Below, piece after piece: positions 6,235 through 24,537 of a stretch of 64,000 bases of DNA. The notes below the pieces were generated by a model. That model did not search any database and had not been told where the DNA came from. It was given only the letters and a program-made list of their open reading frames with translations. Source of the DNA: Actinomycetota bacterium (GTDB lineage: Bacteria; Actinomycetota; Actinomycetes; Mycobacteriales; Mycobacteriaceae); NCBI GenBank assembly GCA_018268465.1, contig JAFDWN010000010.1:354849-418848 (forward strand), read 5' to 3'. Both the position numbers and the translations under genes were made by a program. Position 1 is the first letter of the stretch; each line of letters opens with the position of its first letter.

Positions 6235-6243
6235 CAGCGGGGA

Positions 6244-7557: not shown

Positions 7558-7580
7558 CACCACTGTCCTTTCCTAGAGCC

Positions 7581-7641
7581 GCCGAGATCAGGGTTATGGC
7601 ACGCCGACCCGCCGTCGAACGTGCCGGAACCTTATTTCGGC
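7581..7641. repeat. 61-bp palindromic repeat, copy 2
   Basis: Outer arms GCCGAGATCAGG (7581-7592) and CCTTATTTCGGC (7630-7641) pair with two mismatches. The first 27 bases differ from copy 1 at one position; the centre has diverged, but inner bases GGCACG and CGTGCC still pair. It lies between the end of the 3-hydroxyacyl-CoA dehydrogenase gene and the start of the amine oxidase gene. The two copies are direct repeats flanking the amine oxidase gene. Confidence 0.75.
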
Positions 7642-7659
7642 ACATGAGTCGGCGGCCGC

Positions 7660-8508
7660 TCAGTACCGGTAGAACCCTCGTCCGGACTTACGCCCGGTAT
7701 GGCCTTGCGCGACCAGATCCCGCAGGATCGCGGGCGGTTCGAATCGGGGGCCGAGTGTGTCCGCGAGGTGGCGGGCGATGTCGAGGCGGACGTCCAGCCC
7801 GACGATGTCGGTCAGGGCCAGCGGTCCGACCGGGTGCTTGTAACCCAGTTTCATCGCCTCATCGATGTCCTGCGCCGAGGCGACACCCTCTTCGAGCATG
7901 CGCATCGCCTCCAACGCGATGGCCACCCCCAGGCGCGAGGTGGCGAACCCCGGTGCATCGCGCACGGTAACCGATCGCTTACCCAGGGTGCTGACCCATT
8001 GCGCGGCACGGGAACTCAGTGTCGCATCGGTGCTCTCGGCCACGACGATCTCGACGAGGCCGCTGGTGGGCACCGGGTTGAAGAAGTGCAGGCCCAGGAA
8101 ACGGCCGGGGTTCCGCAGGGACCCCGCCAGCGTGCCGATCGACAGGGCGGACGTGTTCGTGGCGAGCGCGCAGTCGCCGTCGACGACGCCCTCCACCGCG
8201 GCGAGCACCGCGGCCTTGAGTTCGAGGCTCTCGGGAACGGCCTCCACGACCAGACGGCAGCCCGCCAGTTCGCCGAATCCGGTGACGACGCGCAGCCTCG
8301 CCGACACGGTGTCCCAGTCCTCGGCGATGCTGCCGCGCTGACGGGCGGTGCCGATCGACTTCTCGATGCGGGTCGCCGCGGCGCGGGCGCCTGCGGGATC
8401 GGCTTCCCGGACCACGACCGCGCAGCCCGCCGCCAGGAACGCATGGGCGATACCCGCCCCCATGCGGCCCCCGCCGACCACACCGACCGGATCAGGAAGC
8501 GTGGTCAC
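7660..8508 (-). CDS. 3-Hydroxyacyl-CoA dehydrogenase (3-hydroxybutyryl-CoA dehydrogenase type)
   Basis: A 282-residue stand-alone 3-hydroxyacyl-CoA dehydrogenase. The NAD site GVVGGGRMGAGIAHAF is at about 9-24, the catalytic His is in LHFFNPVP (about 140), and the C-terminal domain includes GYKHPVGPLALTDIVGLD, typical of the 3-hydroxybutyryl-CoA dehydrogenase group. It oxidises 3-hydroxyacyl-CoA to 3-ketoacyl-CoA with NAD+. It starts at GTG 8508, 17 bp inside the enoyl-CoA hydratase gene, and is the last gene of the 14-gene operon. A 3-ketoacyl-CoA thiolase is not present in the operon. Confidence 0.92.
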   Translation of the reverse strand: MTTLPDPVGVVGGGRMGAGIAHAFLAAGCAVVVREADPAGARAAATRIEKSIGTARQRGSIAEDWDTVSARLRVVTGFGELAGCRLVVEAVPESLELKAAVLAAVEGVVDGDCALATNTSALSIGTLAGSLRNPGRFLGLHFFNPVPTSGLVEIVVAESTDATLSSRAAQWVSTLGKRSVTVRDAPGFATSRLGVAIALEAMRMLEEGVASAQDIDEAMKLGYKHPVGPLALTDIVGLDVRLDIARHLADTLGPRFEPPAILRDLVAQGHTGRKSGRGFYRY

Positions 8509-9256
8509 GGCGTCGCTCCAGGAATTCGGCCATGCGTCGCTCCTTGTCGTCGCTTTCGAACAGCACCGCCTGCGCGATGTCGTCGATGACGGGATGCGCC
8601 GCGCCGGGTGCAGCCAACAGTGCCTTGGTCAGCCGCACCGCGGTGGGTGCGCCCTTGGCGATCCGCCCCGCCAGGCGGAATGCGGCCGGCAGCAGATCCT
8701 CGGGTGCCACTACCTCGGTGACCAGCCGGTGCGACAGCGCGGCGGCCGCGTCCAGGACCATGCCGGCAAGCAGGATGTGTTTGGCGATCGGCTCCCCCAC
8801 CAGCTCCGCGAGCCGCCAGCTGCCCCCTGCCGCGGCCGCGATACCCAGACCCACCTCGGGGTTGCCGAACCTGGCGGCGGTGCTGGCGATCCGGAAGTCG
8901 GCGGCGTAGGCCAACTCCGCGCCACCACCCAGGGCCCAGCCGTCGACCGCGGCGATGACGGGCATGGGCAGGTGCTGGACCCTGCGGAACAGCGACGAGT
9001 TGATACCCGCGAGCGCGTCGCGGGTGCGGCGCAGCCGCATCTCCGCGATATCGGCGCCCGCGGCGAACACTCCCCCGGCGCCACTGATCACCAGCGTCCG
9101 CGGTTCGGCTTCCAGCCGCGCACACACCTCGTGCAGTTCGGCGGCCATCGCCGCGTTGATTGCGTTCTTCTTGCCGGGGCGGCACAGTTCCACGTGGACG
9201 ACACCGTCGTACTCGGCGACGCGCAGGGTGGCGTCCACAACGTCGCGCGCCGTCAT
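8492..9256 (-). CDS. Enoyl-CoA hydratase/isomerase
   Basis: A 254-residue crotonase-fold protein. Motifs: CRPGKKNAINAAM, the oxyanion loops SGAGGVFAAGADIAEM and AAVDGWALGGGAELAYAADF, and FGNPEVGLGIAAAAGG. The usual second glutamate (GNPE) is present, while the first catalytic acid position of classical hydratases is less clear, so isomerase or hydrolase activity on an acyl-CoA is possible. The ATG overlaps the CocE stop as ATGA, and its own 3' end overlaps the next gene by 17 bp. Confidence 0.9.
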   Translation of the reverse strand: MTARDVVDATLRVAEYDGVVHVELCRPGKKNAINAAMAAELHEVCARLEAEPRTLVISGAGGVFAAGADIAEMRLRRTRDALAGINSSLFRRVQHLPMPVIAAVDGWALGGGAELAYAADFRIASTAARFGNPEVGLGIAAAAGGSWRLAELVGEPIAKHILLAGMVLDAAAALSHRLVTEVVAPEDLLPAAFRLAGRIAKGAPTAVRLTKALLAAPGAAHPVIDDIAQAVLFESDDKERRMAEFLERRRDHAS

Positions 9257-11214
9257 GCCAGATCCCTCGAAACCCGGTGATGCCAGTGCTTTTCGGCGAA
9301 CGGCTCGTCGTTCTCGAACGCTTCGACGTGCACGTCGATGTCGATGTGCGTCGCGGTGGTCAGTACCGTCAGCCGCGAGCGGGTCAATGTGCGCCCCTCG
9401 GGAAACTCCACCCTCAGATCGGCGTCGGCGTCGGCGCGCTGGTCGAAGGTGCGGGTGTCGATGTCGACCCTTCCCGTGTAGTGCGCACCGCAGGCGAACC
9501 CGCGTGCACTGGTCCAGTCCTCACCGTAGGAGGTCCGGCAGGACGTCTTGCGACCCAGCACATCCCGCTCGACCGTCCAGGTCACGCCGGTGCCGTCGGA
9601 CAGTTCGGCGGGGACCACATGCGCCAGCTCGGGCACGGCCGGGCCGTCCAGATCCGCCAGTACCGGGACGTAGAGCAGTGAGGCGTCCCGATCGATCTCG
9701 AGGGTGACGGGCTGCGGCGGTGCCGTCACGTTGGGCCAGTCGGTGCCCGCGACGGCCAGCCGCAGCCGGTTGCCGTCGTCGAGACTCCAGGCGGTGGCCT
9801 CCAGTTCGATCTCGACATCGATCCACTCGCCGGGCACCAGGGCCACCGGGTCGGCGTCGTATCCGTTGCGGTGAGTGAGGTTGAGCAGACCCCGGGTGAT
9901 CAGCGCCGACGTACCGTCGGGGAAGACGTCGCACAGTTTCGCCGACACGAAGGCCACCGGCCGGTCGGCGCGCACCCGCAGCCGCAGCACCGGATGTCCG
10001 TACACGTGCACTCCGTCGCCGGGGAAGTCCCAGGTGACCGATCCGGCATTGTCGTAACGCTGGTCGGTGGGCTGCCCCCAGGGCAGCGACCCGGCACAGC
10101 TGTTCCAGGCCGCCGTCCCGACGTCGGCGATCATCGCGTAGGTCAGTCGCCCCGTGCCCAGACCCAGTTCCAGGGTTTTGGTGTCGGCCAACGGAAGTCC
10201 CGGATGAGCCCGCCACACCCCGCGCACCTCGGCCAGATCGGGTTCCGGGCGCGTGCTGCGCCGGTGGAAGACGGTGGTCCGCGGCTCGCCGTCCACACCG
10301 TTGGCGTCGCCGCGCAGCCAGTGTCCGAACCAGCGGGCCATCTCTGCGGTCAGGTCGATCCACGGCCCCGGCAGCGACCTCTCGGTGCCCATATGGCTCC
10401 ACGGTCCGATCAGCAGCTTCCACGGCGTACCCGCCGCCTCCAGGGCCTCGACGGTTCGAAAGGTGTTGTTGCGGTAGCCATCCGCCCACCCGGCCACGAT
10501 CATCGTGGGGCAGGTGACGCGGGCGTAGTCGGGCCGCAGGGAACCGTGCCGCCAGTAGGGCAGGCGGCGCTGCTCGGTGCGCCAACGGAACAGCCACGGC
10601 TCGTTCGTCTCGATGCGGTGGCGCCATTCGGCGCGCCAGTCGCCGTTCCACATCGCGGGTACCGGCGGCATGGCGTTCATCGCGATCATGTACGACGGGT
10701 AGTCGACCAGGTCGAGCAGACGCATCGCGCCGCCCATGTAGTGGACGTCGTCGTTGAAGCGGTCGTCGGACGAGTACACCGGGACGATCGCCTTCAGCGC
10801 CGCGGGCCGCGCGGCGGCAACCTGCAGCGAGTTGAATCCGCTGTAGGACCAGCCGAACATGCCGACCGAGCCGTTGGACCAGTCCTGGGCGGCGAGCCAG
10901 TCGATCACCGTGGTCAGGTCGTCGATTTCGGATGCCGGATACTCGTCGGTGGCCGCGCCGCCCGAAGAGCCCGTGCCGCGCAGATCGACCCGGCACACGG
11001 CGAGACCGTATTCGGTCGCGAATCGCTCGTACTCGGTGCGCTCGAGAAGATCGTCCTTTCGATAGGGCAGGGCCTCCAGGACGACGGGCACCGGTTCGCC
11101 GGTGACCGGCCGGTACACCGTGAGCGCCAGCGGGACACCGTCGCTCATCGGCAGGGTGACATCGGCGGTGGTGAGCGCGAACCGGGTGGGACTCGTGGAC
11201 ATCGGGCGGGTCAT
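9253..11214 (-). CDS. CocE/NonD-type hydrolase (X-Pro dipeptidyl-peptidase S15 fold)
   Basis: A 653-residue S15-family hydrolase. The N-terminal alpha/beta domain has DLRGTGSSGG and the nucleophile motif GWSYSG (Ser123); WADGYRNN and GPWSHMG supply the usual acid and His regions. The C-terminal half (about 400-650) is the jelly-roll domain of cocaine esterase and glutaryl-7-ACA acylase. Such enzymes cleave esters or amides of bulky acyl groups. No signal peptide is visible, so it should act after import. ATG 11214 is set by an ATGA overlap with the ATPase gene; the longer frame adds 81 Arg/His-rich residues and is a shadow. Its place right after a dipeptide-type importer suggests it hydrolyses the imported compound. 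Confidence 0.88.
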   Translation of the reverse strand: MTRPMSTSPTRFALTTADVTLPMSDGVPLALTVYRPVTGEPVPVVLEALPYRKDDLLERTEYERFATEYGLAVCRVDLRGTGSSGGAATDEYPASEIDDLTTVIDWLAAQDWSNGSVGMFGWSYSGFNSLQVAAARPAALKAIVPVYSSDDRFNDDVHYMGGAMRLLDLVDYPSYMIAMNAMPPVPAMWNGDWRAEWRHRIETNEPWLFRWRTEQRRLPYWRHGSLRPDYARVTCPTMIVAGWADGYRNNTFRTVEALEAAGTPWKLLIGPWSHMGTERSLPGPWIDLTAEMARWFGHWLRGDANGVDGEPRTTVFHRRSTRPEPDLAEVRGVWRAHPGLPLADTKTLELGLGTGRLTYAMIADVGTAAWNSCAGSLPWGQPTDQRYDNAGSVTWDFPGDGVHVYGHPVLRLRVRADRPVAFVSAKLCDVFPDGTSALITRGLLNLTHRNGYDADPVALVPGEWIDVEIELEATAWSLDDGNRLRLAVAGTDWPNVTAPPQPVTLEIDRDASLLYVPVLADLDGPAVPELAHVVPAELSDGTGVTWTVERDVLGRKTSCRTSYGEDWTSARGFACGAHYTGRVDIDTRTFDQRADADADLRVEFPEGRTLTRSRLTVLTTATHIDIDVHVEAFENDEPFAEKHWHHRVSRDLA

Positions 11215-12029
11215 CCTCTCGAGGACGGGGCAGCCTTGCGCTCCTGCGCAAGGGGGCCGGACAGTTTCCTGGTGTGCGGGGACGACCCGAGAACGGCAGA
11301 CAGCAGCTTCTGCGTGTAGGGGTCGCGGGGGTTGGTGGTGACGTCGGCGACGGCGCCGGCCTCGACGATGCGGCCGCGGTGCATCACCGCCACCTGATCG
11401 CTGATGCGCCGCACGATGTCGATGTCGTGGGTGATGAACAGGTACGCCAGCCCGCATTCGCGCTGCAGACGCAGCAGCAGGTTGAGGATCTGGGCCTGCA
11501 CCGACACGTCGAGCGCGGAGGTCGGTTCGTCACACACGATCAGTTCCGGGTCGGTGGCCAGCGCCCGGGCGATCGCGATCCGCTGGCGTTGGCCGCCCGA
11601 GAACCCCGTCACGCGCGCCGCCAGGTCGACGTCGGTCATACCGCACAGGTCCAGCAGTTCGCGCACGCGTTCCCTGCCGCCGCGGCGGTAGCGGCCCTGG
11701 GCGCGCAGCGGTTCGGCGACCACCTCGCCGACGGTGAAACGCGAGTCCAGCGAATCGTAGGGGTCCTGGAGCACCACACCGATGCGGCGGCGGATGGCAC
11801 GGGCCGCCCTTCCCCGGCGCGGGCGCGGCTCACCGTCGAACAGGACGGTTCCGCCGTCGGCGCTTTCCAGGCCGGTGACGATGCGGGCCAGCGTCGACTT
11901 ACCCGAGCCCGATTCACCGACCAGGCTGGTGGTGCGTCCCCGCTCCACCGTCAGGGACACGTCGTGCAGAACCGTGATGGAGCCGAATTTCTTGGTCAGC
12001 GAATTGATTTCGACGATCGGCGTGGTCAC
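11211..12029 (-). CDS. ABC transporter ATPase, OppF/DppF type
   Basis: A 272-residue ABC ATPase. Walker [11 protein letters not shown]-loop LQDPYDSLDSRFTV, signature FSGGQRQRIAIARAL, Walker B LIVCDEPTSALD and the H-loop FITHD are all intact. The C-terminal NPRDPYTQKLLSAV is typical of oligopeptide-type ATPases. GTG 12029 overlaps the preceding stop as GTGA and has GGAGG 4 nt upstream. It pairs with the ATPase encoded immediately before it to drive the importer made by the two permeases and the lipoprotein of this operon. Confidence 0.92.
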   Translation of the reverse strand: MTTPIVEINSLTKKFGSITVLHDVSLTVERGRTTSLVGESGSGKSTLARIVTGLESADGGTVLFDGEPRPRRGRAARAIRRRIGVVLQDPYDSLDSRFTVGEVVAEPLRAQGRYRRGGRERVRELLDLCGMTDVDLAARVTGFSGGQRQRIAIARALATDPELIVCDEPTSALDVSVQAQILNLLLRLQRECGLAYLFITHDIDIVRRISDQVAVMHRGRIVEAGAVADVTTNPRDPYTQKLLSAVLGSSPHTRKLSGPLAQERKAAPSSRG

Positions 12030-13099
12030 TTCGCCTCCAGGACCTCGAGCGGATGGTGGCATGCGGCCCAGTGCCCCGCCACCAGCTCCCGTGCCGCGGG
12101 GGTATCGCTGCGGCACATGTCGTCCGCGCGGTCGCAGCGTGGGGAGAACGGGCAGCCGCTGCGGGCGGCCCGGGCCGACGGGCTGCCCGGTATCGAGCTG
12201 AACGGCTCCTTGTGCCCGGCGGACCGGCCGCTTTCGAAACACTCCAGCAGCTTCCCGGTGTACGGATTGCGGGGATTGTCGAAAACGGAGTACACGTCAC
12301 TGTTCTCGAGCATCTGACCGCCGTAGAGCACCGCGACGGAGTCGGCCATTTCGGCCACCACCGACATATCGTGGGTGATCCACAGACACGTCAGGCCGTT
12401 GCGCTCCTGCAGATCGACGATGAGTTGGAGGATGTCGGCCTGCACGGTGACGTCCAGCGCCGTGGTGGGTTCGTCGGCGATCAGCAGCTCGGGTTCGAAT
12501 GCCAGCGCCATCGCGATCATCACCCGCTGGCGCATGCCCCCGGACAGCTGATGCGGGTACATCCGCGCGACCCGCGCGGGATCGTGGATGTTGACCTGCT
12601 CCAGCGCCGCGACGGCCCGGTCGTCGGCCACCCGCTTCGTCTCGCCGCCGCGCACGGAGTAGATCTCGCTGACCTGTCGGCCGATCCGCACGACCGGGTT
12701 GAGCGCGGCGAGCGCATCCTGAGCGAGGTAGGCGACCTTCTGGCCGCGCATCTGCCGCAACGGCGAACCTTCGAGGGCCAGCACGTCGACACCCCCGACA
12801 GTGATCGAGCCCGAACCGATGCTGGCGTCGCGGGTGAGCAGCCTGCTGCAGGCCAGCGCGATCGTGGACTTCCCCGAGCCCGACTCGCCGACGAGCGCCA
12901 GGGTGGTGCCCGCCTCGATGTCGAAGCTGACGTTGCGCACCGCGTGGTAGTCGCCGTAGGACACCGACAGGTTGCGCACCGTGACGTGCGACCCCACCGC
13001 CCGGGCGGGTGCCGCCGATGCCGCCCCGGGCGCCGGCCCGCCCGCGTTGTCCGAGGGCGTACCCGATGCGGCCGTCGCCGCACTCACCGCCGAACTCAC
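12026..13099 (-). CDS. ABC transporter ATPase, OppD/DppD type
   Basis: A 357-residue ABC ATPase with an Ala/Gly-rich N-terminal extension (about 1-38). Walker [11 protein letters not shown]-loop [11 protein letters not shown], signature [15 protein letters not shown], Walker [14 protein letters not shown]-loop WITHD. The C-terminal oligopeptide-transporter domain has the Cys motif [15 protein letters not shown], which in several OppD/DppD proteins binds a [4Fe-4S] cluster. GTG 13099 overlaps the permease stop as GTGA. The 545-residue frame to 13663 runs across the permease gene and is not real. Confidence 0.92.
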
Positions 13100-14016
13100 A
13101 CTGCACCCACCTTCGTACGGGGATCGACGAACGCGCGGACGACGTCCGCGGTGAGGTTGCCGAGCACCACGACCACCGCGGCCACGATGACGGTGCCCAT
13201 CAGCACCGGCCGGTCGACGTCGGCGAAGGCCTGCGTCTGCAGCGCCCCGATACCGGGCCAGCCGAAGATCGCCTCCACGAACACCACACCCGAGAACATG
13301 ATCGCGGTGTCCATGCCGATCATCGTGATCGACGGGGGCAACGCGTTGCGCAGCACATGCCTGCTGATCACGTAGCGCTTCGGGAGTCCGCGCGACACAG
13401 CGGTTCTCGTGTACGAGGCGGCCAGCGCATCCTTCATGCCGTCGCGGATCAGGTTGGTGTAGTACGGCGCCCCGAGCACGCCGAGGGTCACCGCGGGAAG
13501 TGCCAGATGCGACCATCCGCCGCCGCCGTCCACCGGGAAGATCGGTATCACGTAGCCGAAGGCGAGCAGCAGCAGAAATCCGAGAGCAAAAGCGGGAATC
13601 GACAGTAACGCGACGTTGACCGCGGCGAGTGCCCAACTGCGGGTGGGCCGCAGCGCTTCCCACAGTCCCAGGCTGGCGCCCAGGATGACCTCGATCATCA
13701 GGGCGGTGGTCGCGAGCAGGGCCGTCGCGGGCAGCCGCTCGAGGATCAGGTCGAGCACCGGCCGGTTCCTGGTGTAGGACTCGCCGAGATCGCCGTGCAG
13801 GACATCGGTGAAGTAGTGCCAGAACTGCACGGCAAGCGGGTCGTTCAGGCGCAGCCTGGCCCGGATGTCGGCGAGGAGTTCGGGAGTCGCCTTGGGGCCC
13901 GCGATCGACCGGGCCGGGTCGCCGGGCATCAGGTACTGGATCACGAACGTCAGGAGGATGACCAGCGCGACGGTGAGGATGCCGTAGAGCACCCGCTTGG
14001 TCAGATATCGAGCCAT
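13096..14016 (-). CDS. ABC transporter permease, DppB type
   Basis: A 306-residue permease with six predicted membrane helices, the first being VLYGILTVALVILLTFVIQYL, and the DppB signature MPGDPAR after it. The EAA-like coupling loop is RTAVSRGLPKRYVISRHVLRNALPPSI. ATG 14016 is 16 bp inside the upstream permease gene. It forms the membrane channel with the DppC-type partner. Confidence 0.92.
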   Translation of the reverse strand: MARYLTKRVLYGILTVALVILLTFVIQYLMPGDPARSIAGPKATPELLADIRARLRLNDPLAVQFWHYFTDVLHGDLGESYTRNRPVLDLILERLPATALLATTALMIEVILGASLGLWEALRPTRSWALAAVNVALLSIPAFALGFLLLLAFGYVIPIFPVDGGGGWSHLALPAVTLGVLGAPYYTNLIRDGMKDALAASYTRTAVSRGLPKRYVISRHVLRNALPPSITMIGMDTAIMFSGVVFVEAIFGWPGIGALQTQAFADVDRPVLMGTVIVAAVVVVLGNLTADVVRAFVDPRTKVGAV

Positions 14017-14903
14017 GAGTGACGCTCCGAGAGTGAGTTGCGGCGGTTGACGCCTTCGGCGATGAGCACGAAGGACAGTACGGTCAGCACGGTGAGGGTC
14101 AGCGGGACCAGGAGCATGTGCGGGGCGTAGTCGATTGCCGCGGAGCCGCTTTGGAGGAGGTTGCCGAGCTCGGGTTGGGGCGGCTGGATGCCGGCACCGA
14201 GGTAGGACAGGCCGGCGCCGATCACCACGACGGCGGCTCCGTTGAGTGCCGCGATGTTGATGAGCACCGTCGAGATGTGCGGAAAGATGTGCCGGTTGAG
14301 GATGGTGAGCCTGCCGACGCCGTGCACGGCGGCCGCCTCGACGAATCCCCTGCCTCGCAGCCGCAGCACCTCGCCGTAGACCAGGCGGGCCGTCCACGCC
14401 CAGTACAGCGCGGTGACCACCACGATGATGCCCCACACGCCCTGCCCGACGATGCTGGCCAGGGCGAGGCCGGACAGCACCACCGGGATGGACAGGAACA
14501 CGTCGACGATACGCATGAGCGTCTGCTCCACGAACGTCCCGAAGAATCCGGCGAGCAGTCCCACGACGATACCCAGCGCCATCGATGTCACGTTCGCCAC
14601 GATGGCGATGAACAGCGTGGCACGCAGACCGGTCACGCTGCGCGCCAACATATCCCGGCCCAGCGCGTCGGTGCCGAGGAAGTGCCCCGGCGTGAAGGGT
14701 CCCATCGGGGTGCCCAGATCGCTCAAACCGTCCTTGTACATCACGTAGGGCGACCCGAACAGCGGGGCGGCCAGCGCGAGCAGGATCAGCAGGCCGAGCA
14801 GTGCACAGCCGACATAGAGCACCCGGCTCTTTCGTGCAGCCTTGCGGGGTTTGCGCGTGACGTCGAGTTCCTCACGCACCGCCGCCGCGACCATCGTCGT
14901 CAT
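14001..14903 (-). CDS. ABC transporter permease, DppC type
   Basis: A 300-residue permease. It has a cytoplasmic basic head (RKPRKAARKS), a first helix VLYVGCALLGLLILLALAAP, the DppC-family segment HFLGTDALGRDMLARSVTG, and a coupling loop around EAAAVHGVGRLTILNRHIFP. The ATG at 14903 is one base after the stop of the lipoprotein gene (TGA-C-ATG). It acts with the DppB-type permease to import the solute delivered by the lipoprotein. Confidence 0.92.
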   Translation of the reverse strand: MTTMVAAAVREELDVTRKPRKAARKSRVLYVGCALLGLLILLALAAPLFGSPYVMYKDGLSDLGTPMGPFTPGHFLGTDALGRDMLARSVTGLRATLFIAIVANVTSMALGIVVGLLAGFFGTFVEQTLMRIVDVFLSIPVVLSGLALASIVGQGVWGIIVVVTALYWAWTARLVYGEVLRLRGRGFVEAAAVHGVGRLTILNRHIFPHISTVLINIAALNGAAVVVIGAGLSYLGAGIQPPQPELGNLLQSGSAAIDYAPHMLLVPLTLTVLTVLSFVLIAEGVNRRNSLSERHSWLDI

Positions 14904-14904
14904 G

Positions 14905-16572: not shown

Positions 16573-18119
16573 GGCGTTACTCCTTCCCGACGCCGATCCG
16601 CGGAGTATCCGTGTCGGTCGGCTCCATGGGGGATGAGAAGTGTTTTGGTTTCCAGGAATTCGTGCAGCCCGGCCACTCCGAGTTCGCGGCCGTTGCCGGA
16701 TTGCTTGTACCCGCCCGTCGGCGCGTCGACGTCGAACGGCGCACCGTTGATCACCACCCGCCCGGTCTGCATCCGCCGCGCGATGTCGAGCACCCGGTCC
16801 AGGTCGGCACCCCACACCGCGCCGCTGAGGCCGTAGACGGAGTCGTTGGCGATCCGGACCGCGTCGTCGTCATCCTCGTAGGGGATCAGCATGGCCACCG
16901 GTCCGAAGATCTCCTCCCGCGCGATCGTCATGGCCGGTGCGACGTGGGAGAACAGCGTGGGCAACACCCAGTTGCCGCCGGCGAGTCCGTCGGGAATCTG
17001 CGCGGGCCCCGGTAGGCCGCCGAGCACCAGGCGTGCTCCCTCGGCCACACCGCGGTCGAGGTAGGACACGACGGTCTCGTACTGGGCGCGGGTCGCGATG
17101 GGACCGATGTGGTCACCCGGAAGCCGCGGGTCGCCGATGCGCCAGCGGCCGGTGATATCCGCGGCCATGTCCACGGCCGCGTCGTAACGCCCGCGCGGCA
17201 CGAGAATTCTGCTGCACGCGGTGCAGGTCTGGCCCGAGTTGTAGTAGACGCCGGCCAGGGCGCCGGACATCGCGGTGTCGTCGTCGAGCGCGTCGTCGAG
17301 CAGGACGGCCGCGGACTTGCCGCCGAGTTCCAGCCCGACCCGTTTGATCGTGTCCGCCGCCGCGACGGACACCAGGCGCCCCGCGGCCGTCGATCCGGTG
17401 AACGAAACCGCCGCCACCCCGGGGTGTCTGGCCAGCCGGTCGCCGACCACCGTGCCGCGTCCCGTCACCAGATTGACGATGCCCGCGGGTGCGCCCATAT
17501 CGCGGGCGACGTCGGTGATCGTCTCGACGAGCAGGTAGGCGTCGAGCGGGGCCTCCAGGCTGGGCTTGAGGACCACGGTGCACCCCGCGGCGAGCGCGGC
17601 CGCGACCTTGATCGAGGCGAGGTAGAGCGGATAGTTCCACGGCGTGATCGCGGCGACGACACCGATCGGTTCGTAGCGCACCACGCTGGCGCCTGCGACG
17701 TCCTCCCAGCTGTGCTCGCGCGCGATGCGGGCGTAGGACCGGAACACGTCGACGCCGAGCTGGGCCTGCACAGCACGGGCGTTGTCGACCGGCGCCCCCA
17801 TCTCGGCGGTGATCCGCGCGGCGAACTCGTCGAGCCGCGCGGAGACACGCGTGGCGACCTCGTCGAGCAGTGCGGCGCGGAACTCGGGATCGGTTGCCGC
17901 CCAACGCGTGAGCGCATCGGCGGCGGCGTCGACGCCGCGGTCGGCGTCGGCTCCCCCGGCGACGGGGACGTGGGCGATCACCCGCCCCGTCGCCGGGTCG
18001 ACCACCGGCGCGGGCGGCGCCGGGTCGAGCGGCGCGCGCCACCGCCCGCCGATGATCAGCCCGTCGACGTGCAGCGGTGCGGGGACGTGGCGCACCGTCC
18101 CCGCGGTGGTGGCCGTCAC
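16569..18119 (-). CDS. NAD(P)-dependent aldehyde dehydrogenase
   Basis: A 516-residue aldehyde dehydrogenase. The cofactor loop ITPWNYPLYLASIK, the FTGSTAAGR motif, the general-base Glu in LELGGKSAAVL and the catalytic Cys in NSGQTCTACSRI are present, with EIFGPVAMLIPY and a C-terminal NGRELGVAGLHEFLETK. It would oxidise an aldehyde to an acid. The GTG at 18119 overlaps the Rieske oxygenase stop as GTGA, so the aldehyde may be the product of that oxygenase (for example an O- or N-dealkylation product). This link is an inference. Confidence 0.92.
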   Translation of the reverse strand: MTATTAGTVRHVPAPLHVDGLIIGGRWRAPLDPAPPAPVVDPATGRVIAHVPVAGGADADRGVDAAADALTRWAATDPEFRAALLDEVATRVSARLDEFAARITAEMGAPVDNARAVQAQLGVDVFRSYARIAREHSWEDVAGASVVRYEPIGVVAAITPWNYPLYLASIKVAAALAAGCTVVLKPSLEAPLDAYLLVETITDVARDMGAPAGIVNLVTGRGTVVGDRLARHPGVAAVSFTGSTAAGRLVSVAAADTIKRVGLELGGKSAAVLLDDALDDDTAMSGALAGVYYNSGQTCTACSRILVPRGRYDAAVDMAADITGRWRIGDPRLPGDHIGPIATRAQYETVVSYLDRGVAEGARLVLGGLPGPAQIPDGLAGGNWVLPTLFSHVAPAMTIAREEIFGPVAMLIPYEDDDDAVRIANDSVYGLSGAVWGADLDRVLDIARRMQTGRVVINGAPFDVDAPTGGYKQSGNGRELGVAGLHEFLETKTLLIPHGADRHGYSADRRREGVTP

Positions 18120-19255
18120 GCGTCCGTGCCGGCGAGTCTGCCCAGCACCCAGTGCTGGTAGCCCGCGATCAGCTTCTCCGACTCCAGCATGATCCGGCCC
18201 TGCCGCAGCGCGCCGGATCGGATGCCCTGTTGCACGGATTCGACGAGGACGGTGTCCTCCGCGCCGACCTCGTTGTCGAACACGATCATGTCGTCGATCC
18301 ACTCCTGGGACACGCCGGGACCGAAGTAGTAGTCGAGGAAGCCGCGACTGGTGTCCGGTCCGGTGGGGAGCACCGGCCCGATCGACAGGTTCGGCAGTCC
18401 CGGGTTGATGTTGACCTTCATATTCGGGAACGCCGCGAAGTAGCGGCCCTCCGGGATCACGCCGTCGCGTCCGGTGTAGCCGCCGTCCGGCGCCGCACCC
18501 GGACCCAGTGGCCGCAGCGGCCCGTTCTGCCAGGCCATCGTCGGCTCCAGCACGAGTTGATACGCCGCCATATCGGTGTCGAGGACGTGACTGAAGCCGG
18601 GGTGGGCGGTCGGGCAGTGGTAGCACTCCAGGTAGTTCTCGATCGCGACCTTCCAGTTGCACTTCAGGTCGTAGGAGACCCGGAAGTGGAACGTCAGGTC
18701 GTCGACGTCGATGCCGGCGCCCGCGGTCAGTGCGGGGATGTCGGCGAGCTGGGCGTCCAGCGGTTCGGGTGCCGCATCGAGATTGGCGAACAGGAACGGG
18801 CCCCACGTCTGGGCCGACGCCTTGCGCAGGCCCAGTTCGGATTGCGGGAAATCCGCCTCGGCCCGGGCTCGTGGCGCGCCCTTGAGGCTGCCGTCCAGGC
18901 CGTAGGTCCAGGCGTGGTAGTGGCACTGCAGGGTGCGGCGCTGCCCGCACTCCTCCAGCACCACCTTGGCGGCGCGGTGCCTGCACACGTTGTGGAAGGC
19001 GTTGAGCGAACCGTCCCGGTCGCGCACCACCACGATCGGGTTTCCCGCGATGTCGGCGGTGACGAACTGTCCGGGTTGTGCGACGTCCGCGGCCCGGCCG
19101 ATGTACTGCCAGGTCCTGGCGAAGATCGCCGAGGTCTCGGCGGCCAGGACGGCGGGGTCGGTGTACCAGCTCAACGGCAGCGTCTTGCCCTGTTCCAGAT
19201 CGTGCGCGATGCGGGCGGCTTCGGCGGCGTCGACGACGAATGGTCCTTGGTTCAC
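18116..19255 (-). CDS. Rieske non-heme iron oxygenase, catalytic (alpha) subunit
   Basis: A 379-residue Rieske oxygenase. The [2Fe-2S] ligands are C-R-H (in NVCRHRAAK) and C-H-Y-H (in LQCHYHAWTYG). The mononuclear iron site is seen in ENYLECYHCPTAHPGF (bridging acid and two His), with the third ligand acid likely in IVFDNEVGAED. The CNWKVAIENYLECYH text is closest in style to choline, betaine and carnitine monooxygenases and O/N-demethylases rather than classical arene dioxygenases; no beta subunit gene is present, consistent with an alpha-only enzyme. Electrons likely come from the reductase encoded at 23462-24400. ATG 19255 overlaps the SDR stop as ATGA. Confidence 0.92.
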   Translation of the reverse strand: MNQGPFVVDAAEAARIAHDLEQGKTLPLSWYTDPAVLAAETSAIFARTWQYIGRAADVAQPGQFVTADIAGNPIVVVRDRDGSLNAFHNVCRHRAAKVVLEECGQRRTLQCHYHAWTYGLDGSLKGAPRARAEADFPQSELGLRKASAQTWGPFLFANLDAAPEPLDAQLADIPALTAGAGIDVDDLTFHFRVSYDLKCNWKVAIENYLECYHCPTAHPGFSHVLDTDMAAYQLVLEPTMAWQNGPLRPLGPGAAPDGGYTGRDGVIPEGRYFAAFPNMKVNINPGLPNLSIGPVLPTGPDTSRGFLDYYFGPGVSQEWIDDMIVFDNEVGAEDTVLVESVQQGIRSGALRQGRIMLESEKLIAGYQHWVLGRLAGTDA

Positions 19256-20085
19256 GATCGGGAATCCCTTCCGGCGGTTGAGGTGACGAGTTCTGCATGG
19301 TGGGCGCCCTGCGACGGGTTGGGCGTGCGGGTGGCGGCGTGCATCGGCACACCCAGCGACCTGCCGCCGTCGGCGGCGAAGACCGCTCCGGTGACGTAGC
19401 TCGACTGCTCACCGAGCAGGAAGGCGGCGACGTCGGCGATCTCGCCGGCGGTGCCGAACCGTCCCAGCGGGATCAGGTCGAGCATGCGCTCCTGGGCGCC
19501 CGGGTCGGAGAGTATGCCGGCCACCGCATTGTCGGTGGGGACGAATCCGGGCGCCAGCGCGTTCACCCGGATCCGGTCCGGTCCCCATTCCCTGGCCACC
19601 GATTTGGTGAAGGCGATCATGCCCGCCTTGGCGGCGGCCGAATGCGCGACGAGCGGAGCGCCCGTCCACGCGTAACTGGCGACGATGTTGAGGACGACTC
19701 CGGGCCTGCCCTCCCGGATGAGCCGGCGTGCCAGGGCCTGTGAGGCGTTGAACGTGCCGTACAGGGAGATCTCGACGACAGCGCGGAAGGCCCGGGAGCT
19801 CAGGTCGACCGTCCGCGCGGTGAAGTTGCCCGCCGCATTGTTCACCAGACCGTCGACGCCGGGCAGCCCGTCGATGACCGCCGCCACCGCGTCGTGATCG
19901 CGGACGTCGACGGCGTAGACGGATACGTTTCCGGGCTCGCCTGCCAGGCTTTCGGCGGCCGCCTCCAGCTTGGCGGGGGTCCTGGAGATCAGCACCACGT
20001 CGTCGCCGTCGCGGACCAGCCGCTGCGCGATGGCGTACCCGATTCCGGTCGCACCCCCGGTGACGACGATCGTGCGCGCGCTCAC
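19252..20085 (-). CDS. SDR oxidoreductase, 2,4-dienoyl-CoA-reductase-like
   Basis: A 277-residue short-chain dehydrogenase with the NADP(H) motif TGGATGIGYAIA, NNAAGNF in the central strand and GxP-type PGFVPTDN. The catalytic position reads AHSAAAKAG: the Lys is kept but the usual YxxxK Tyr is replaced, with Ser four residues before the Lys. This pattern is typical of SDR-type 2,4-dienoyl-CoA reductases and related enoyl reductases. NNAAGNF is also common in that group. The C-terminal tail of about 25 residues is an extension. GTG 20085 overlaps the FadE stop as GTGA. The role is probably reduction of a dienoyl-CoA intermediate. Confidence 0.85.
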   Translation of the reverse strand: MSARTIVVTGGATGIGYAIAQRLVRDGDDVVLISRTPAKLEAAAESLAGEPGNVSVYAVDVRDHDAVAAVIDGLPGVDGLVNNAAGNFTARTVDLSSRAFRAVVEISLYGTFNASQALARRLIREGRPGVVLNIVASYAWTGAPLVAHSAAAKAGMIAFTKSVAREWGPDRIRVNALAPGFVPTDNAVAGILSDPGAQERMLDLIPLGRFGTAGEIADVAAFLLGEQSSYVTGAVFAADGGRSLGVPMHAATRTPNPSQGAHHAELVTSTAGRDSRS

Positions 20086-20930
20086 CGGTGTGCCTTCGCG
20101 GCGGTCACCGCCGCCACCAGCGGCGGCGTCCAGGACCGCAGCGCTTCGGCGCGGCGGGAGTACCGCTGCAGCGGGTACTCCAGGGTGAATCCGAGCCCGC
20201 CCAGAATCTGGTGGCAGTCCTTGACCACTCGGTAGGCCGCCACCCCGGCCTGGCGCAGCACGGATCCACCCGGCCGGCGCGCCGCCGCCATCTGCAGCCC
20301 CTCGCTTGCCGTGGCGCAGTCCGCGATCTTCTTGGCCACCGCGTCGAGGTGGGTCAGCGGCTTGCCGAATGCGATGCGCTCGGCGGCATATCCCGTCGCC
20401 AGGTCCAGCGCGCCCGCCGAGAGCCCGGCGAGGTAGCCGGTCATCGCCGTGATCCAGGCGTCGACGGCCGCGGGCGACACCACCGCCGGACCTGCGGGTG
20501 CGGTGCCGACGATGGCCACCGCCTGCGCGTCGACGTAGGCGATCGGCGCGGCGTCGGTGATCTCGACGAGTGCGGCGCCGTCAGTGCCGCACAGCCAGGC
20601 GGTGTCGCCCGGACCGAGGTAGCGGGCGAGGGCGATGTCGCCGGCGTCCAGGGCCACGCCGTGGCCGAGCAGGTCGTCGACGATGTCGAGCGGGGCCAGC
20701 GCGCGGCCCAGCTCGACCGCGGCAGGTCCGAGGAAATCGGGGCCGACGGATTCGTCCGCGACGTCGAACCATCCGGCCCCGACGAGGCGCTCACGCAAGG
20801 ACGGGGTGCGGTCGTCGGACGGTGCGGTGGGTGACCAGTCCGCCGGAGCCGTCGCGGTCTCGCAGATCCTGCGGACGGTGGCGGTGAAATCACGGATATC
20901 GGCGTCGAGGGCGGCGGTGTCGGTGGTCAT
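20082..20930 (-). CDS. Short acyl-CoA dehydrogenase-like subunit (FadE, non-catalytic type)
   Basis: A 282-residue member of the acyl-CoA dehydrogenase family, about 100 residues shorter than a full subunit. The C-terminal helical domain is clear (RIAFGKPLTHLDAVAKKIAD, then HQILGGLGFTLEYPLQRYSRR). The middle beta-domain is degenerate and the C-terminal WEGTSEIQ-type Glu motif is absent. This matches the partner subunit in mycobacterial alpha2beta2 FadE complexes (ChsE type), where one chain lacks catalytic residues. The likely partner is the 391-residue FadE of the same operon. ATG 20930 overlaps the CoA transferase stop as ATGA. Confidence 0.85.
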   Translation of the reverse strand: MTTDTAALDADIRDFTATVRRICETATAPADWSPTAPSDDRTPSLRERLVGAGWFDVADESVGPDFLGPAAVELGRALAPLDIVDDLLGHGVALDAGDIALARYLGPGDTAWLCGTDGAALVEITDAAPIAYVDAQAVAIVGTAPAGPAVVSPAAVDAWITAMTGYLAGLSAGALDLATGYAAERIAFGKPLTHLDAVAKKIADCATASEGLQMAAARRPGGSVLRQAGVAAYRVVKDCHQILGGLGFTLEYPLQRYSRRAEALRSWTPPLVAAVTAAKAHR

Positions 20931-22159
20931 CGGGGTGTGCTTCCTTCGGGTGTGTGCAGTTGGCTGAGCTGCTCGCGCAGGGCCTCGGTGTGCTCGCCGA
21001 GGCGCGGTGCGCTGTGTGCGTCCGGGGTGGCGCCCCCGTCGATCTTGAAGAGGGTGCCGAGGACGCTGACGTCGCCGACGCCGGGCTGGTCGATGTGCTG
21101 GACGAGGCCGTTGGCCCTGACCTGCTCGGCGCGGTGGGCGTGGGAGATCTCGCGGACCGGGCCGGCGGGTATGCCGGATTCGGCGAAGGTGGCGATCCAC
21201 TGTTGGACCGTTCGTGTCGAGATCACCTCGGCGAACCGGTGTTTGAGCGCGCTGCGAGCTGCGTGCTCCTGCGCGTCGGCGGGCCTGGCCTGTGGATTGG
21301 CCGCCCACGGGTCGTCGATGCCGAGCAGGTTCGCGACGGTGGTGCGCTGAGCCAGGTTGAGGCAGGCGAGCGCGATGTACCCGTCGGCGGCCTCATAGCA
21401 GCGGTAGTAGGGTTCGAGTTCGTCGGAATCGCGGACCTCGCCGGCGATCTGGCCCAGCCGGGTGCGGTCGCAGAACGGCGGGGTGGCGTCGCGCTCCGCT
21501 CCGATCGCGACGAAACGCTGCACCTGCACGGCCAGTGCGGCGCCGAGCAGCGACACCTCGATACCTTTGGCGGTTCCGTCGCCGCCGCGGCGGAACCGGT
21601 CGGCCAGACCCAGCAGCGCCGCGGAGAATGTCAGCAGCCCGGCGGTGAGGTCGGCCATCGCGATACCCCCCGACCGACGTGGCACCCGGTCACCGGGGCG
21701 GGCGTCGGCAAGCAGCAGCCCCGAGGCGGCTTGGGCGATGAGGTCGTACCCCAGTGTCGGCGCTTCGGGTCCGTCGGTGCCGAACGCCGACACGCAGCAC
21801 CAGACCGCCTGTGGGTTCACCGCTTCGACGGACTGCCGGTCAAGCCCGAACTCGCGGGCCCGGGCGGGCGGCATATTGTGGATGACGACATCGGCGCTGC
21901 GCAGGAGCGCACGGCTGAACTGTTGTCCTTCTTCGGTTTTCAAATCGGCGACGACGGACTTCTTGTTGCGGTTCAGCGAGATGAACCACCGTCCCCCGTC
22001 GGCGGTGATGGGCTCGTAGTGCCGCCACGCGTCACCGCGCGGTGGTTCGACCTTGATGACCTCGGCACCCAGGTCGGCCAGCAGCATCGCCGCGAAGGGT
22101 CCGGCGACATACTGGGCGTAGTCCAGTACCCGTAGCCCGGCGAGCGGCCCGGTGGTCAT
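20927..22159 (-). CDS. CaiB/BaiF-type family III CoA transferase
   Basis: A 410-residue family III CoA transferase. The N-terminal LAGLRVLDYAQYVAGPFAAMLLADLGAEVIKVEPP-type opening is characteristic, as are the NRNKKSVVADLKTEEG motif and AFGTDGPEAPTLGYDLIAQA; the catalytic Asp is expected in the MADLTAG region. It moves CoA between an acyl-CoA donor and a carboxylate, so it can activate the acid in this pathway without an ATP-dependent ligase. ATG 22159 overlaps the FadE stop as ATGA. Residues before it in the longer frame belong to the antisense of the FadE gene. Confidence 0.9.
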   Translation of the reverse strand: MTTGPLAGLRVLDYAQYVAGPFAAMLLADLGAEVIKVEPPRGDAWRHYEPITADGGRWFISLNRNKKSVVADLKTEEGQQFSRALLRSADVVIHNMPPARAREFGLDRQSVEAVNPQAVWCCVSAFGTDGPEAPTLGYDLIAQAASGLLLADARPGDRVPRRSGGIAMADLTAGLLTFSAALLGLADRFRRGGDGTAKGIEVSLLGAALAVQVQRFVAIGAERDATPPFCDRTRLGQIAGEVRDSDELEPYYRCYEAADGYIALACLNLAQRTTVANLLGIDDPWAANPQARPADAQEHAARSALKHRFAEVISTRTVQQWIATFAESGIPAGPVREISHAHRAEQVRANGLVQHIDQPGVGDVSVLGTLFKIDGGATPDAHSAPRLGEHTEALREQLSQLHTPEGSTPR

Positions 22160-23331
22160 GCGCCCGCACCGATGCGGCGCCGGGAGATGTTCTTGCGCTG
22201 GATGTCCGAAACCCCACCGGCGATGGTGGTGGCGACGGCGGCCCGCGCGAAGGCCGCCAGCTTGCCGTCCAGGACCGCACCCGGGCCGTGTTCGACCAAG
22301 GCGCGCGGCCCGACCAGGTCGACCGCGACGGTGGCGAGTTCCTGCATCAGCACCGCGATCGAGAGCTTGGCCATCGACGACTCCGCACTCGCGTCCGCTC
22401 CTGCGGCCAACCGCATGGTGGCGCGGCGCCCGTGCTCGCGGGCGATGTGCACGTCGCCGCGCAGGCGGTTCAGCGTGTCGCGGCCCGGGCGGTCGGTGAC
22501 CACCGCCTCCAGCCCGTCCAGCAGGCGCAGCATGACGCCGACCTTCTCGCTGGTGACGCGCTCGTAGTCGAGTGTGCCCATGAGGATCTGCCAACCGGCG
22601 TTCTCCGCGCCGACCAGCTGGTCGGCCGGCACCGCGACGTCCGTCAGCGTGAGTTCGCCCAGCGTGCCCCCGCCCAGGGTGCGGTGCACGTCAACGACGA
22701 TGCCGGGGGTGGTGATGTCGACGAGGAAGACCGACAGCCCGCGGTGGCGGGAATCCGGGGTGCCGGTCCGGGCGGCCAGGTAGACCCAGTCGGACACTTC
22801 GGCGCTGGAGGTCCAGATCTTGCGGCCGTTGACGATGTAGCGGTCGCCGTCGCGGCGCGCCACCGTGCGCAGCGACCCGAGGTCGCTGCCCGCCTCGGGT
22901 TCGGAGAAGCCCTGGCAGAAGATCAGGTCGCCGGATGCGATGCCGGGGATGAAGCGAGCACACATGTCGTCGCTCGCGTACTGCAGCAGGGCGTTGCCGA
23001 TCGTCTTGACCGACAGCAGGTAGCTCGACATCGGCAGCCAGTGGTAACCCATCTGCTCCTCGACGGCGAAGGTCACCAGCGGGTCGAGTCCGCGGCCGCC
23101 GAATCGCACGGGCCAGTGCATCCCGATCAGCCCGGCCCTGCCGTATGCGGCGTACGCCGCCCGTGAGTCGGCGTCCGACGGCGACCCTTGCGTCGGCAAC
23201 ACACCGCAGCCGCGGACACCGAATTCTTCTGCCAGTCTTGCGAGTTCGACGTTGGTGTCGGCGATCACCGCGTCGGCGTCAGCTGCGATGTCCGGTCCGG
23301 TGATGGTTGTCGTCCCGATTGCGGTGGTCAT
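22156..23331 (-). CDS. Acyl-CoA dehydrogenase (FadE, catalytic type)
   Basis: A 391-residue acyl-CoA dehydrogenase. Features are FGGRGLDPLVTFAVEEQMG, the FAD-contact FSEPEAGSDLGSL, WTSSAEVSDWVYLAART, and a C-terminal AGGVSDIQRKNISRRRIG where ordinary enzymes carry the EGTSEIQ Glu. A Glu at about 257 in TLDYERV occupies the alternative catalytic position used by isovaleryl-CoA dehydrogenase and the ChsE-type mycobacterial enzymes. It is the first gene of the 14-gene operon; its leader has two palindromes (23370-23384 and 23449-23466). It probably forms a heteromer with the short FadE at 20082-20930. Confidence 0.9.
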   Translation of the reverse strand: MTTAIGTTTITGPDIAADADAVIADTNVELARLAEEFGVRGCGVLPTQGSPSDADSRAAYAAYGRAGLIGMHWPVRFGGRGLDPLVTFAVEEQMGYHWLPMSSYLLSVKTIGNALLQYASDDMCARFIPGIASGDLIFCQGFSEPEAGSDLGSLRTVARRDGDRYIVNGRKIWTSSAEVSDWVYLAARTGTPDSRHRGLSVFLVDITTPGIVVDVHRTLGGGTLGELTLTDVAVPADQLVGAENAGWQILMGTLDYERVTSEKVGVMLRLLDGLEAVVTDRPGRDTLNRLRGDVHIAREHGRRATMRLAAGADASAESSMAKLSIAVLMQELATVAVDLVGPRALVEHGPGAVLDGKLAAFARAAVATTIAGGVSDIQRKNISRRRIGAGA

Positions 23332-23369
23332 GGGTGTGTCTCAGCTCCGATTACTGCTCGACCGATGAT

Positions 23370-23384
23370 TTTCATTGGATGAAA
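23370..23384. promoter_or_regulatory. Palindrome in the leader of the 14-gene operon
   Basis: TTTCATTGGATGAAA, perfect 6-bp arms with a 3-bp spacer, 39 bp before the FadE start. Just upstream on the minus strand is an AT-rich CTATATAG stretch (23391-23398) that could be a -10 element. It is a plausible repressor site or transcript hairpin and differs in sequence from the ACTGA-N8-TCAG sites nearby. Confidence 0.5.
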
Positions 23385-23448
23385 GTAACTTCTATATAGT
23401 GAATGTTAGGTGGCGTCCGCGTTCCGTGTCAACGGTGCCGGCCGTTTT

Positions 23449-24400: not shown

Positions 24401-24442
24401 CGACCGCGTCCTGGATTTTCGAACCGCGAAAGGAGCTTCCGC

Positions 24443-24505: not shown

Positions 24506-24510
24506 AAATA

Positions 24511-24528: not shown

Positions 24529-24537
24529 ACAAACCGT

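Follow-up and report, generated by a model that had tools for sequence, protein, structure and literature searches.

Introduction

Rieske oxygenases of group V are defined by their quaternary-ammonium substrates, some members carrying a pair of cysteines, and within the group clade Va is defined by an aromatic residue at the position of CntA residue 203 (PMC7948474 and PMC10952381). The demethylating clade Vb has an Asn at the key position, and the substrates recorded for the group as a whole are few and small: carnitine, choline, glycine betaine, stachydrine and benzalkonium (PMC7948474). In this report, we focus on a group V–type oxygenase encoded within a 14-gene operon at 7660–23331 on the minus strand of a stretch of DNA from a soil mycobacterium (Mycobacteriaceae; GenBank assembly GCA_018268465.1, contig JAFDWN010000010.1, positions 354,849–418,848). 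This whole stretch, 64,000 nucleotides long, is referred to below as the window, and all coordinates refer to it. We find that the operon is the core of a wider cluster (6244–36091), a rare, accessory set of some two dozen genes whose parts are known and whose combination appears undescribed.

Several described systems resemble parts of this cluster. CntA/CntB is the carnitine monooxygenase, which turns carnitine into trimethylamine and malic semialdehyde. It shares with our cluster a group V Rieske fold, a bridging Glu, a Cys pair, a π-cation Tyr and a reductase partner, as well as an aldehyde product that is oxidized further (PMC11353897). However, the pocket is changed in our oxygenase, the importer is of the peptide type, and a CocE-type hydrolase, acyl-CoA and lysine modules are added. 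Stc2 and GbcA, which demethylate stachydrine and glycine betaine, respectively, and after which enzymes of the sarcosine-oxidase type act, likewise belong to group V and act on N-methylated amino acids, but they have an Asn at the key position where our enzyme has a Tyr, and our enzyme falls far under the cut-off of the model for the glycine betaine monooxygenase GbcA (NF058607, 161.7 bits against 670). The pipecolate/D-lysine route of Pseudomonas putida reportedly includes a piperideine-6-carboxylate dehydrogenase. This route and our cluster both feature HglS and a D-2-hydroxyglutarate step (PMC7286885), whereas here extra copies are tied to a Rieske operon and the entry step differs. The piperine cluster of Rhodococcus ruber No. 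14 is likewise a large actinobacterial cluster in which an N-conjugate is hydrolyzed and the acid part β-oxidized, but it relies on a metal amidohydrolase and an ATP-dependent ligase where ours has CocE and a CoA transferase (PMC12753220), and the word Rieske is absent from the main text of that paper. Finally, the heteromeric acyl-CoA dehydrogenases of cholesterol side-chain degradation are the nearest to our FadE1 by sequence, and a short partner gene nearby is shared with them, although no steroid genes are seen in this cluster.

The cluster ties a group V Rieske oxygenase to aminoadipate catabolism and acyl-CoA oxidation, and would give soil actinobacteria a further means of recycling methylated nitrogen compounds. 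Among open-access titles and abstract openings, we found no pathway combining a Rieske oxygenase with trimethyllysine, pipecolate or betaine in these genera, and none for growth on trimethyllysine. All of its parts come from known families; it is the combination that appears new in the literature searched.

The operon and its conservation

The first finding is that the 14-gene operon is a genuine conserved catabolic unit with signs of common regulation, since relatives in two genera keep its genes in the same order. An earlier note on this DNA, made from the sequence alone, had proposed these 14 minus-strand genes, all of which are present at 7660–23331, and its product assignments hold at the family level. 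Read 5' to 3' on the minus strand, they encode an acyl-CoA dehydrogenase (FadE1), a CoA transferase (CaiB), a short acyl-CoA dehydrogenase partner (FadE2), a short-chain dehydrogenase/reductase (SDR), the Rieske oxygenase (RO), an aldehyde dehydrogenase (ALDH), a substrate-binding protein (SBP), two permeases, two ATPases, CocE, an enoyl-CoA hydratase (ECH) and a 3-hydroxyacyl-CoA dehydrogenase (HADH). The junctions are exactly as the note had counted them: ten of the 13 are 4-bp ATGA/GTGA overlaps, two are longer overlaps (17 bp for ECH/HADH and 16 bp for permease/permease), and one is a gap (1 bp for SBP/permease). Outside the cluster, with mechanically assigned starts, a 4-bp overlap occurs in one of the 15 same-strand neighbor pairs of the window.

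A scan of named genomes for RO returned 30 loci. Those above 70% come from M. frederiksbergense AC80 (L028), M. sp. CBMA 247 (L029, genome G119), R. jostii NBRC 16295 (L030, G380), Mycobacterium sp. 852013-50091 (L032, G109), M. komossense (L033), and a metagenome-assembled genome (MAG) of an uncultured Mycolicibacterium (L031 and L057, G041). The order RedB-FadE1-CaiB-FadE2-SDR-RO-ALDH-importer-CocE, in which RedB is a reductase gene upstream of the operon, is kept in the first five of these and in a second Rhodococcus genome, G329. In the same five, a 4-bp overlap is possible in every case at the FadE1/CaiB, CaiB/FadE2, FadE2/SDR, RO/ALDH, permease/ATPase and ATPase/ATPase junctions. The view of a single uptake and oxidation unit is thus borne out by gene order in Mycolicibacterium and Rhodococcus, and the importer is not separate in relatives, lying beside RO and ALDH in all five with enough flanking sequence. 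As to its extent, the 14 genes are real but form only the core. M. sp. CBMA 247 has all the genes of 6244–36091 except d3, an amino acid dehydrogenase gene, and the earlier note was without the CntA-type nature of the oxygenase, the reductase, the two regulators with their operator-like sites and the 2-aminoadipate module.

Carriers are few. An RO at least 80% identical was found in our genome and three others out of 148 genomes of the same genus, our own included (13 candidates scored per genome), a fifth having a relative at 35% only, while the 301 genomes of the family gave our own and two of another genus (6 candidates scored per genome). Only our own genome was found among the 397 of the order, and a class-wide search for SBP found no other carrier, both weak negatives with about 4 and about 3 candidates scored per genome, respectively.

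The Rieske oxygenase and its reductase

RO (18116–19255, minus strand) has CntA as its best solved relative by sequence (E 7e-47 over 338 residues, about 31% identical), followed by the stachydrine demethylase Stc2, which aligns over the Rieske half only. The predicted model (predicted local distance difference test score, pLDDT, 92.5) gives the same ranking, with CntA chains filling fold matches 1–13 and the stachydrine demethylase coming next. CntA residues Y203, E205, C206, C209, Y225 and N270 have their counterparts in Y208, E210, C211, C214, Y232 and N282. The CntA-like bridging Glu and the Cys-X-X-Cys pair beside the iron, the pair being a feature of some group V members (here E210, C211 and C214), have equivalents in all 21 rows of an alignment of the window with 20 of the 30 RO loci; among the ten loci left outside it, the Cys pair is absent from L054 and L056, L044 has a disruption at this place, and the L057 copy is incomplete. 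At the position of CntA residue 203, which marks clade Va, a Tyr or Phe is found in 19 of the 21 rows, the others having Gln and Thr. Of the residues lining the carnitine pocket (F258, Y225, N270, Y295, Y315 and F319), RO keeps only Y225 and N270: Y315 is replaced by F326, and F258, Y295 and F319 by G270, L307 and V330, so that the pocket is changed relative to CntA and probably roomier.

By sequence and predicted fold, RO is a CntA-like group Va oxygenase and not an aromatic oxygenase. Aromatic ring hydroxylation was considered and rejected, the ring-hydroxylating models scoring below that of GbcA and CntA coming first by both sequence and fold. The π-cation tyrosine and the Cys pair would suit a nitrogen that is quaternary or N-methylated. 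This sharpens the earlier guess at an imported ester or amide carrying an alkyl or N/O-methyl group: the compound that fits best has an N-methyl group together with an ester or amide bond, and the alkyl and O-methyl options are therefore not favored.

RedB (23462–24400, minus strand), a flavin/2Fe-2S reductase with Fer2 and NAD-binding domains, adjoins the operon upstream and is the likely partner of RO; it matches the GbcB and PaaE reductase models under their cut-offs. We prefer the ATG at 24400 as its start because the other candidate, a TTG at 24481, doubles as the −35 hexamer in the promoter-like site of this gene. The ORF finder chose this TTG, a coincidence by which automatic annotation could misplace the start.

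Import, hydrolysis and acyl-CoA genes

The importer has the composition of a Dpp/Opp peptide system as judged from family models: a lipoprotein SBP (14905–16572) with an LSGC lipobox, permeases 1 (14001–14903) and 2 (13096–14016), and ATPases 1 (12026–13099) and 2 (11211–12029), all on the minus strand. The best PDB chain for SBP is 8upi (E 1.2e-62), for which a search of open-access papers found nothing; modeling its pocket, as the earlier note had suggested, gave a pLDDT of 42 and no usable fold. The next gene encodes a CocE/NonD (S15-type) serine hydrolase (9253–11214, minus strand; TIGR00976, 215 bits against a cut-off of 66), whose best PDB match is cocaine esterase and in which the Ser-Asp-His triad is aligned (GWSYSG, GWADG and PWSH).

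ALDH (16569–18119, minus strand), which adjoins RO also in the distant locus L034, matches the models of Rv0768-type, aminobutyraldehyde and betaine-aldehyde dehydrogenases, all under cut-off. FadE1 (22156–23331, minus strand), the first of the 14 genes, has a DYERV motif whose Glu we take to be catalytic, and its best PDB relatives are 4x28 and Tcur3483, presumably steroid side-chain heteromeric acyl-CoA dehydrogenases for bulky rings. FadE2 (20082–20930, minus strand) has the C-terminal Pfam domain only. The pair may form a heteromer of the FadE26/27 type, in which one chain carries the catalytic Glu and the partner is truncated. CaiB (20927–22159, minus strand) is a family III CoA transferase of the CaiB/succinate-glutarate type (PF02515, 313 bits), its top NCBIfam model, NF052585, being under cut-off. 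SDR (19252–20085, minus strand) has NF005811 as its top model (228 bits, under the cut-off of 318) and the motifs NNAAGNF, SYAWTG and SAAAKAG, the first two of which we assume to be typical of 2,4-dienoyl-CoA reductases. ECH (8492–9256, minus strand) carries GGGAEL and FGNPE motifs and matches short-chain enoyl-CoA hydratase models under cut-off, and HADH (7660–8508, minus strand), the last gene, scores 258–260 bits against the NCBIfam 3-hydroxyacyl/3-hydroxybutyryl-CoA dehydrogenase models, again under their cut-offs. A thiolase had been listed as missing from this set, and indeed none is found among the annotated genes of 6244–36091; an ATP-dependent ligase, listed as a second gap, is unnecessary because a family III CoA transferase is present.

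Regulators and operator-like sites

Upstream of RedB, on the minus strand, lie genes for an IclR-family regulator (24538–25311, by family models) and a TetR regulator with a BetI-type C-terminal domain (25322–25909; PF13977, 79.5 bits, with the BetI equivalog model under cut-off). Two promoter-like sites on the minus strand, TTGACA-18-TAACAT at 23403–23432 and TTGACG-18-TACAGT at 24452–24481, are located before FadE1 and before RedB, respectively. Two such sites in 6000–25950 compare with 1.3 expected by shuffling, so the count itself is no evidence.

Two palindromes accompany these sites. Box A, a 22-bp palindrome (TTACTGA-N8-TCAGTAA), is found at the operon (23447–23468, two mismatches) and twice upstream of RedB (24486–24530, starting at 24486 and 24509 with zero and two mismatches). 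The window has four matches against 0.20 expected, and none of 100 shuffles had four; the fourth, a weak match at 29716 between convergent genes, is probably due to chance. With up to three mismatches, box A is present at the RedB and FadE1 promoters of all five same-genus relatives (M. frederiksbergense AC80, M. sp. CBMA 247, the MAG locus L031, Mycobacterium sp. 852013-50091 and M. komossense), and also before TetR in M. komossense. Scans with spacers of 6, 7 and 10 gave stray matches in L023, L024, L030, L033 and L057. Box B (ACTTTCA-N5-TGAAAGT) lies downstream of the FadE1 −10 (23368–23386, one mismatch), with two matches in the window against 0.13 expected and one of 100 shuffles having two. 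Its core is kept with up to two mismatches after the FadE1 −10 in L028 to L033, R. jostii included, and a perfect core occurs also before the importer in R. jostii and in Rhodococcus G329; in R. jostii, 165 bp and this kind of operator-like site precede the importer half. A putative pairing of TetR with box A and of IclR with box B is suggested by the distribution of the boxes over relatives, because in R. jostii no TetR match was found in the 30 kb examined and box A is absent at this spacing. The stretches from both Rhodococcus genomes likewise gave no TetR match. The sharing of operator-like sites means that induction experiments and assays offer a way to look for the substrate.

The 2-oxoadipate module

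On the far side of the regulators is a set of genes related to lysine degradation, most of them on the plus strand. Among them is d4 (31914–33350, plus strand), an HglS 2-oxoadipate dioxygenase/decarboxylase (NF050083, 665.8 bits against a cut-off of 600) with 6w1g as its best PDB match. In HglS, the metal ligands are His/His/Glu, with an Arg (PMC7286885), and all four are aligned in d4 within HGAIR, HINH and FGEVEQRG. The d5 gene (33241–34881, plus strand; true start probably near 33350) encodes an L-piperidine(piperideine)-6-carboxylate dehydrogenase (NF050084, 795 bits against a cut-off of 730). The d6 gene (34904–36091, plus strand) encodes a DAO-family FAD amine oxidoreductase that matches the L-pipecolate oxidase AmaA weakly (NF050086, 53 bits against a cut-off of 600), and d3 (30735–31910, plus strand) encodes a Glu/Leu/Phe/Val-type amino acid dehydrogenase by family models.

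Clusters of M. sp. CBMA 247, Mycobacterium sp. 852013-50091 and both Rhodococcus genomes contain d6, and in the latter two d5 and d6 follow CocE directly on the same strand, with AmOx, an amine oxidase gene, divergent beyond IclR. At E 1e-80, d6 was found in our own genome only among 98 of the same genus (no more than 19 candidates scored in each); one of the other 97, the MAG genome, does carry RO, but there the contig with the cluster is 12 kb long and ends inside d5. One or two extra copies of d5 lie elsewhere in our genome and in the four genomes named above, and HglS has extra copies in these four and is single in our own. Because such further copies exist in carriers, the cluster copies look dedicated. 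Plain lysine catabolism as an account of d4–d6 was rejected on both grounds, the failure to find d6 in any of the other 97 genomes of the genus and the extra d5 and HglS copies.

Proposed pathway and alternatives

Starting from what was observed (gene content, conservation, the class and signature of the oxygenase, the catalytic residues of d4 and CocE, and the operator-like sites), we infer the reactions, their order and the substrate. We hold it about an even bet that the cluster at 6244–36091 serves one external amine of the lysine/pipecolate type, N-methylated or quaternary, probably taken up as an ester or amide. The Dpp-type importer would take up the compound and CocE would cleave its ester or amide bond. 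RedB would pass electrons to RO, which would hydroxylate the carbon beside the methylated nitrogen so that the C–N bond collapses to an aldehyde, which ALDH would oxidize to an acid. CaiB would load the acid part, either released by CocE or made by ALDH, with CoA by transfer; a FadE1/FadE2 heteromer would dehydrogenate the acyl-CoA, and the dienoyl-CoA reductase, ECH and HADH would follow. The nitrogen part would be oxidized by AmOx and d6 to piperideine-6-carboxylate, which d5 would convert to 2-aminoadipate and d3 or a transaminase to 2-oxoadipate; d4 would then form D-2-hydroxyglutarate, and the product of the 26000–28840 gene or another such enzyme 2-oxoglutarate. Through TetR at box A and IclR at box B, the reductase and the operon would be turned on jointly. 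At the level of a substrate class, this proposal would account for the oxygenase type, ALDH, the amine oxidases, d4–d6 and the operator-like sites.

Distant relatives offer further clues. Among plasmid records, the importer permease and SBP are found in two Streptomyces, which also carry TetR at 49–51%, a third TetR match being in an unannotated Nonomuraea record. On the S. cadmiisoli plasmid (L098, 6436–15500), this importer type and TetR occur with formaldehyde-detoxification genes, and SBP is divergent from an S-(hydroxymethyl)mycothiol dehydrogenase gene with two box-A-like sites between them (three mismatches each). On the plasmid of strain HUAS 31, the importer and TetR lie about 15 kb from SBP. 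Genes for an Xaa-Pro-dipeptidase-like enzyme, an amino acid dehydrogenase, SolA, an SDR and an acyl-CoA dehydrogenase come after this SBP, and there are box-A-like sites with two to three mismatches. R. rhodochrous pNit has a 39% RO relative beside BetT and semialdehyde dehydrogenases. The formaldehyde and SolA neighbors in Streptomyces and the pNit context together point to N-methylated nitrogen. The pNit stretch itself (L100, 9424–20558), which encodes BetT, a Rieske oxygenase, a reductase, semialdehyde and aminobutyraldehyde dehydrogenases and an OYE-type flavoenzyme, is a probable quaternary-ammonium catabolic cluster, and Gordonia hydrophobica (L045) has a similar gene set.

Several points weigh against our proposal. 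No single known compound fits all the enzymes, and the acyl-CoA and lysine halves are joined by gene linkage only. Three CntA pocket residues are changed in RO, and three of the six other Rieske genes of the same genome also have ECYHC and the aromatic residue, so that the motif marks the group and not one substrate. ALDH, ECH, HADH, SDR, CaiB, d6 and the 26000–28840 gene product are all under NCBIfam equivalog cut-offs. Among relatives, there is no d3 match in M. sp. CBMA 247; Mycobacterium sp. 852013-50091 has no AmOx match at its cluster, and 432 residues are missing from the start of its 26000-type gene product; the MAG has neither the 26000-type gene nor d1 between d2 and TetR, and the CocE that comes after its importer shows just 49% identity; and ECH, HADH and the 26000-type gene give no match in the stretches from either Rhodococcus. 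In one of these two, G329, another d6-like gene (68%) lies at a distance of about 30 kb. The Streptomyces stretches have no Rieske match, and their box-A-like matches come without a shuffle control. In a Micromonosporaceae MAG (L034, RO 52%), the distant relative that tells the most, CocE is divergent from RO-ALDH with a box-A-like site (three mismatches) between them and Dpp-type genes are present, but this CocE-RO-ALDH and importer set has no FadE/CaiB or lysine genes in 21 kb.

Within the proposed class, a more specific version, in which the group Va enzyme would cleave a quaternary-ammonium lysine derivative straight to piperideine-6-carboxylate and be operator-linked to import and the HglS route, seems unlikely but worth stating. 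If true, this would be a complete, previously unrecorded path for growth on methylated lysine, e.g., trimethyllysine or a conjugate. Trimethyllysine as the substrate, perhaps in a peptide or acyl form, is itself rather improbable. Cleavage of its ε C–N bond by RO would give trimethylamine and 2-aminoadipate semialdehyde (equivalent to piperideine-6-carboxylate, the d5 substrate), a single step linking a CntA-type oxygenase to d5 and d4, and the amino-acid/peptide-type importer, the kept π-cation tyrosine and the smaller pocket residues would all suit it. However, CaiB, FadE1/2, SDR, ECH, HADH and ALDH are left without a role, and open-access titles and abstract openings hold no precedent.

We find it similarly doubtful that the substrate is homostachydrine or N-methylpipecolate, which stepwise N-demethylation would turn into pipecolate and then piperideine-6-carboxylate, in parallel with stachydrine to proline. 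In the cluster of Rhodococcus G329, d4 and d6 flank a gene for a SolA-type N-methyl amino acid oxidase that scores above its cut-off; this is consistent with such a route, as are the formaldehyde genes beside the importer in Streptomyces and the weak likeness of d6 to AmaA. It would leave the acyl-CoA half unexplained, though, and RO has the Va tyrosine and not the Asn of the demethylating clade Vb (PMC7948474).

The third candidate, no better placed, is an ester of a lysine-derived piperidine, indolizidine, quinolizidine or N-methyl alkaloid. CocE would de-esterify it, RO open a ring at a C–N bond, ALDH make a side-chain acid that CaiB-FadE-SDR-ECH-HADH shorten, and pipecolate be left. Nearly every enzyme would be used in one chain, the presumed steroid-type, heteromeric nature of the nearest FadE1 relatives, 4x28 and Tcur3483, would fit, and amide hydrolysis followed by β-oxidation is known for piperine in Rhodococcus, although the piperine enzymes, a metal amidohydrolase and an acyl-CoA synthetase, differ (PMC12753220). 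The cluster has no alkaloid-specific gene and no thiolase.

Degradation of a choline or carnitine ester is very unlikely. CocE would free choline or carnitine for oxidation by RO and ALDH and the acyl chain would pass through CaiB-FadE, with the lysine module an unrelated neighbor; the BetI-type domain of TetR, the RO relative beside BetT on pNit and the CocE-RO-ALDH core in L034 would fit. Yet d5–d6 are joined to the operon in Rhodococcus, d6 tracks the cluster, and ALDH is under the betaine-aldehyde dehydrogenase cut-off. Least probable of all is that two or three unrelated modules are neighbors by chance: distant RO relatives do have different neighbors, 165 bp separate the importer and catabolic halves in R. 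jostii, and several flanking genes vary among relatives, but the linkage is kept in two genera after rearrangement, the operator-like sites are shared, and the overlaps are conserved.

Neighboring genes

The ends of the cluster vary between relatives, and neither the 26000–28840 gene nor AmOx is a constant part of it. AmOx (6244–7563, minus strand), a flavin amine oxidase of the putrescine-oxidase-like type, follows HADH after 96 bp. The gene at 26000–28840 (minus strand) encodes a YdiJ-like FAD/4Fe-4S dehydrogenase, under cut-off, and is a probable D-2-hydroxyglutarate dehydrogenase. Beyond it, family models identify a GntR/FCD regulator, d1 (28906–29649, plus strand), and a LysR regulator, d2 (29731–30732, minus strand). 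In Mycobacterium sp. 852013-50091 (L032, 1570–3298), the shortened 26000-type gene abuts a d1 fragment, as if by deletion. In the MAG (L057, 7195–10253), the importer is followed by an HpnE/CrtI-type flavin oxidoreductase, not detectably an AmOx ortholog, and then by the divergent CocE.

Genes beyond d6 (37469–62182) and below AmOx are not conserved at E 1e-20 in the stretches of M. sp. CBMA 247, Mycobacterium sp. 852013-50091 and the two Rhodococcus genomes, the exceptions being low-identity matches to u5 and d3 and the second d6-like gene of G329. These genes include a plus-strand row at 37469–42407 encoding a histone-deacetylase-like hydrolase, a second flavin amine oxidase, a cytochrome P450 and a methionine-γ-lyase-like enzyme, not seen beside the cluster in relatives. 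Finally, about 6–14 kb below the window start on the same contig, a second locus (L019, 6455–7726 and 12682–13527) encodes relatives of both AmOx (an amine oxidase, 51% identity) and RO (a Rieske oxygenase, 34% identity).

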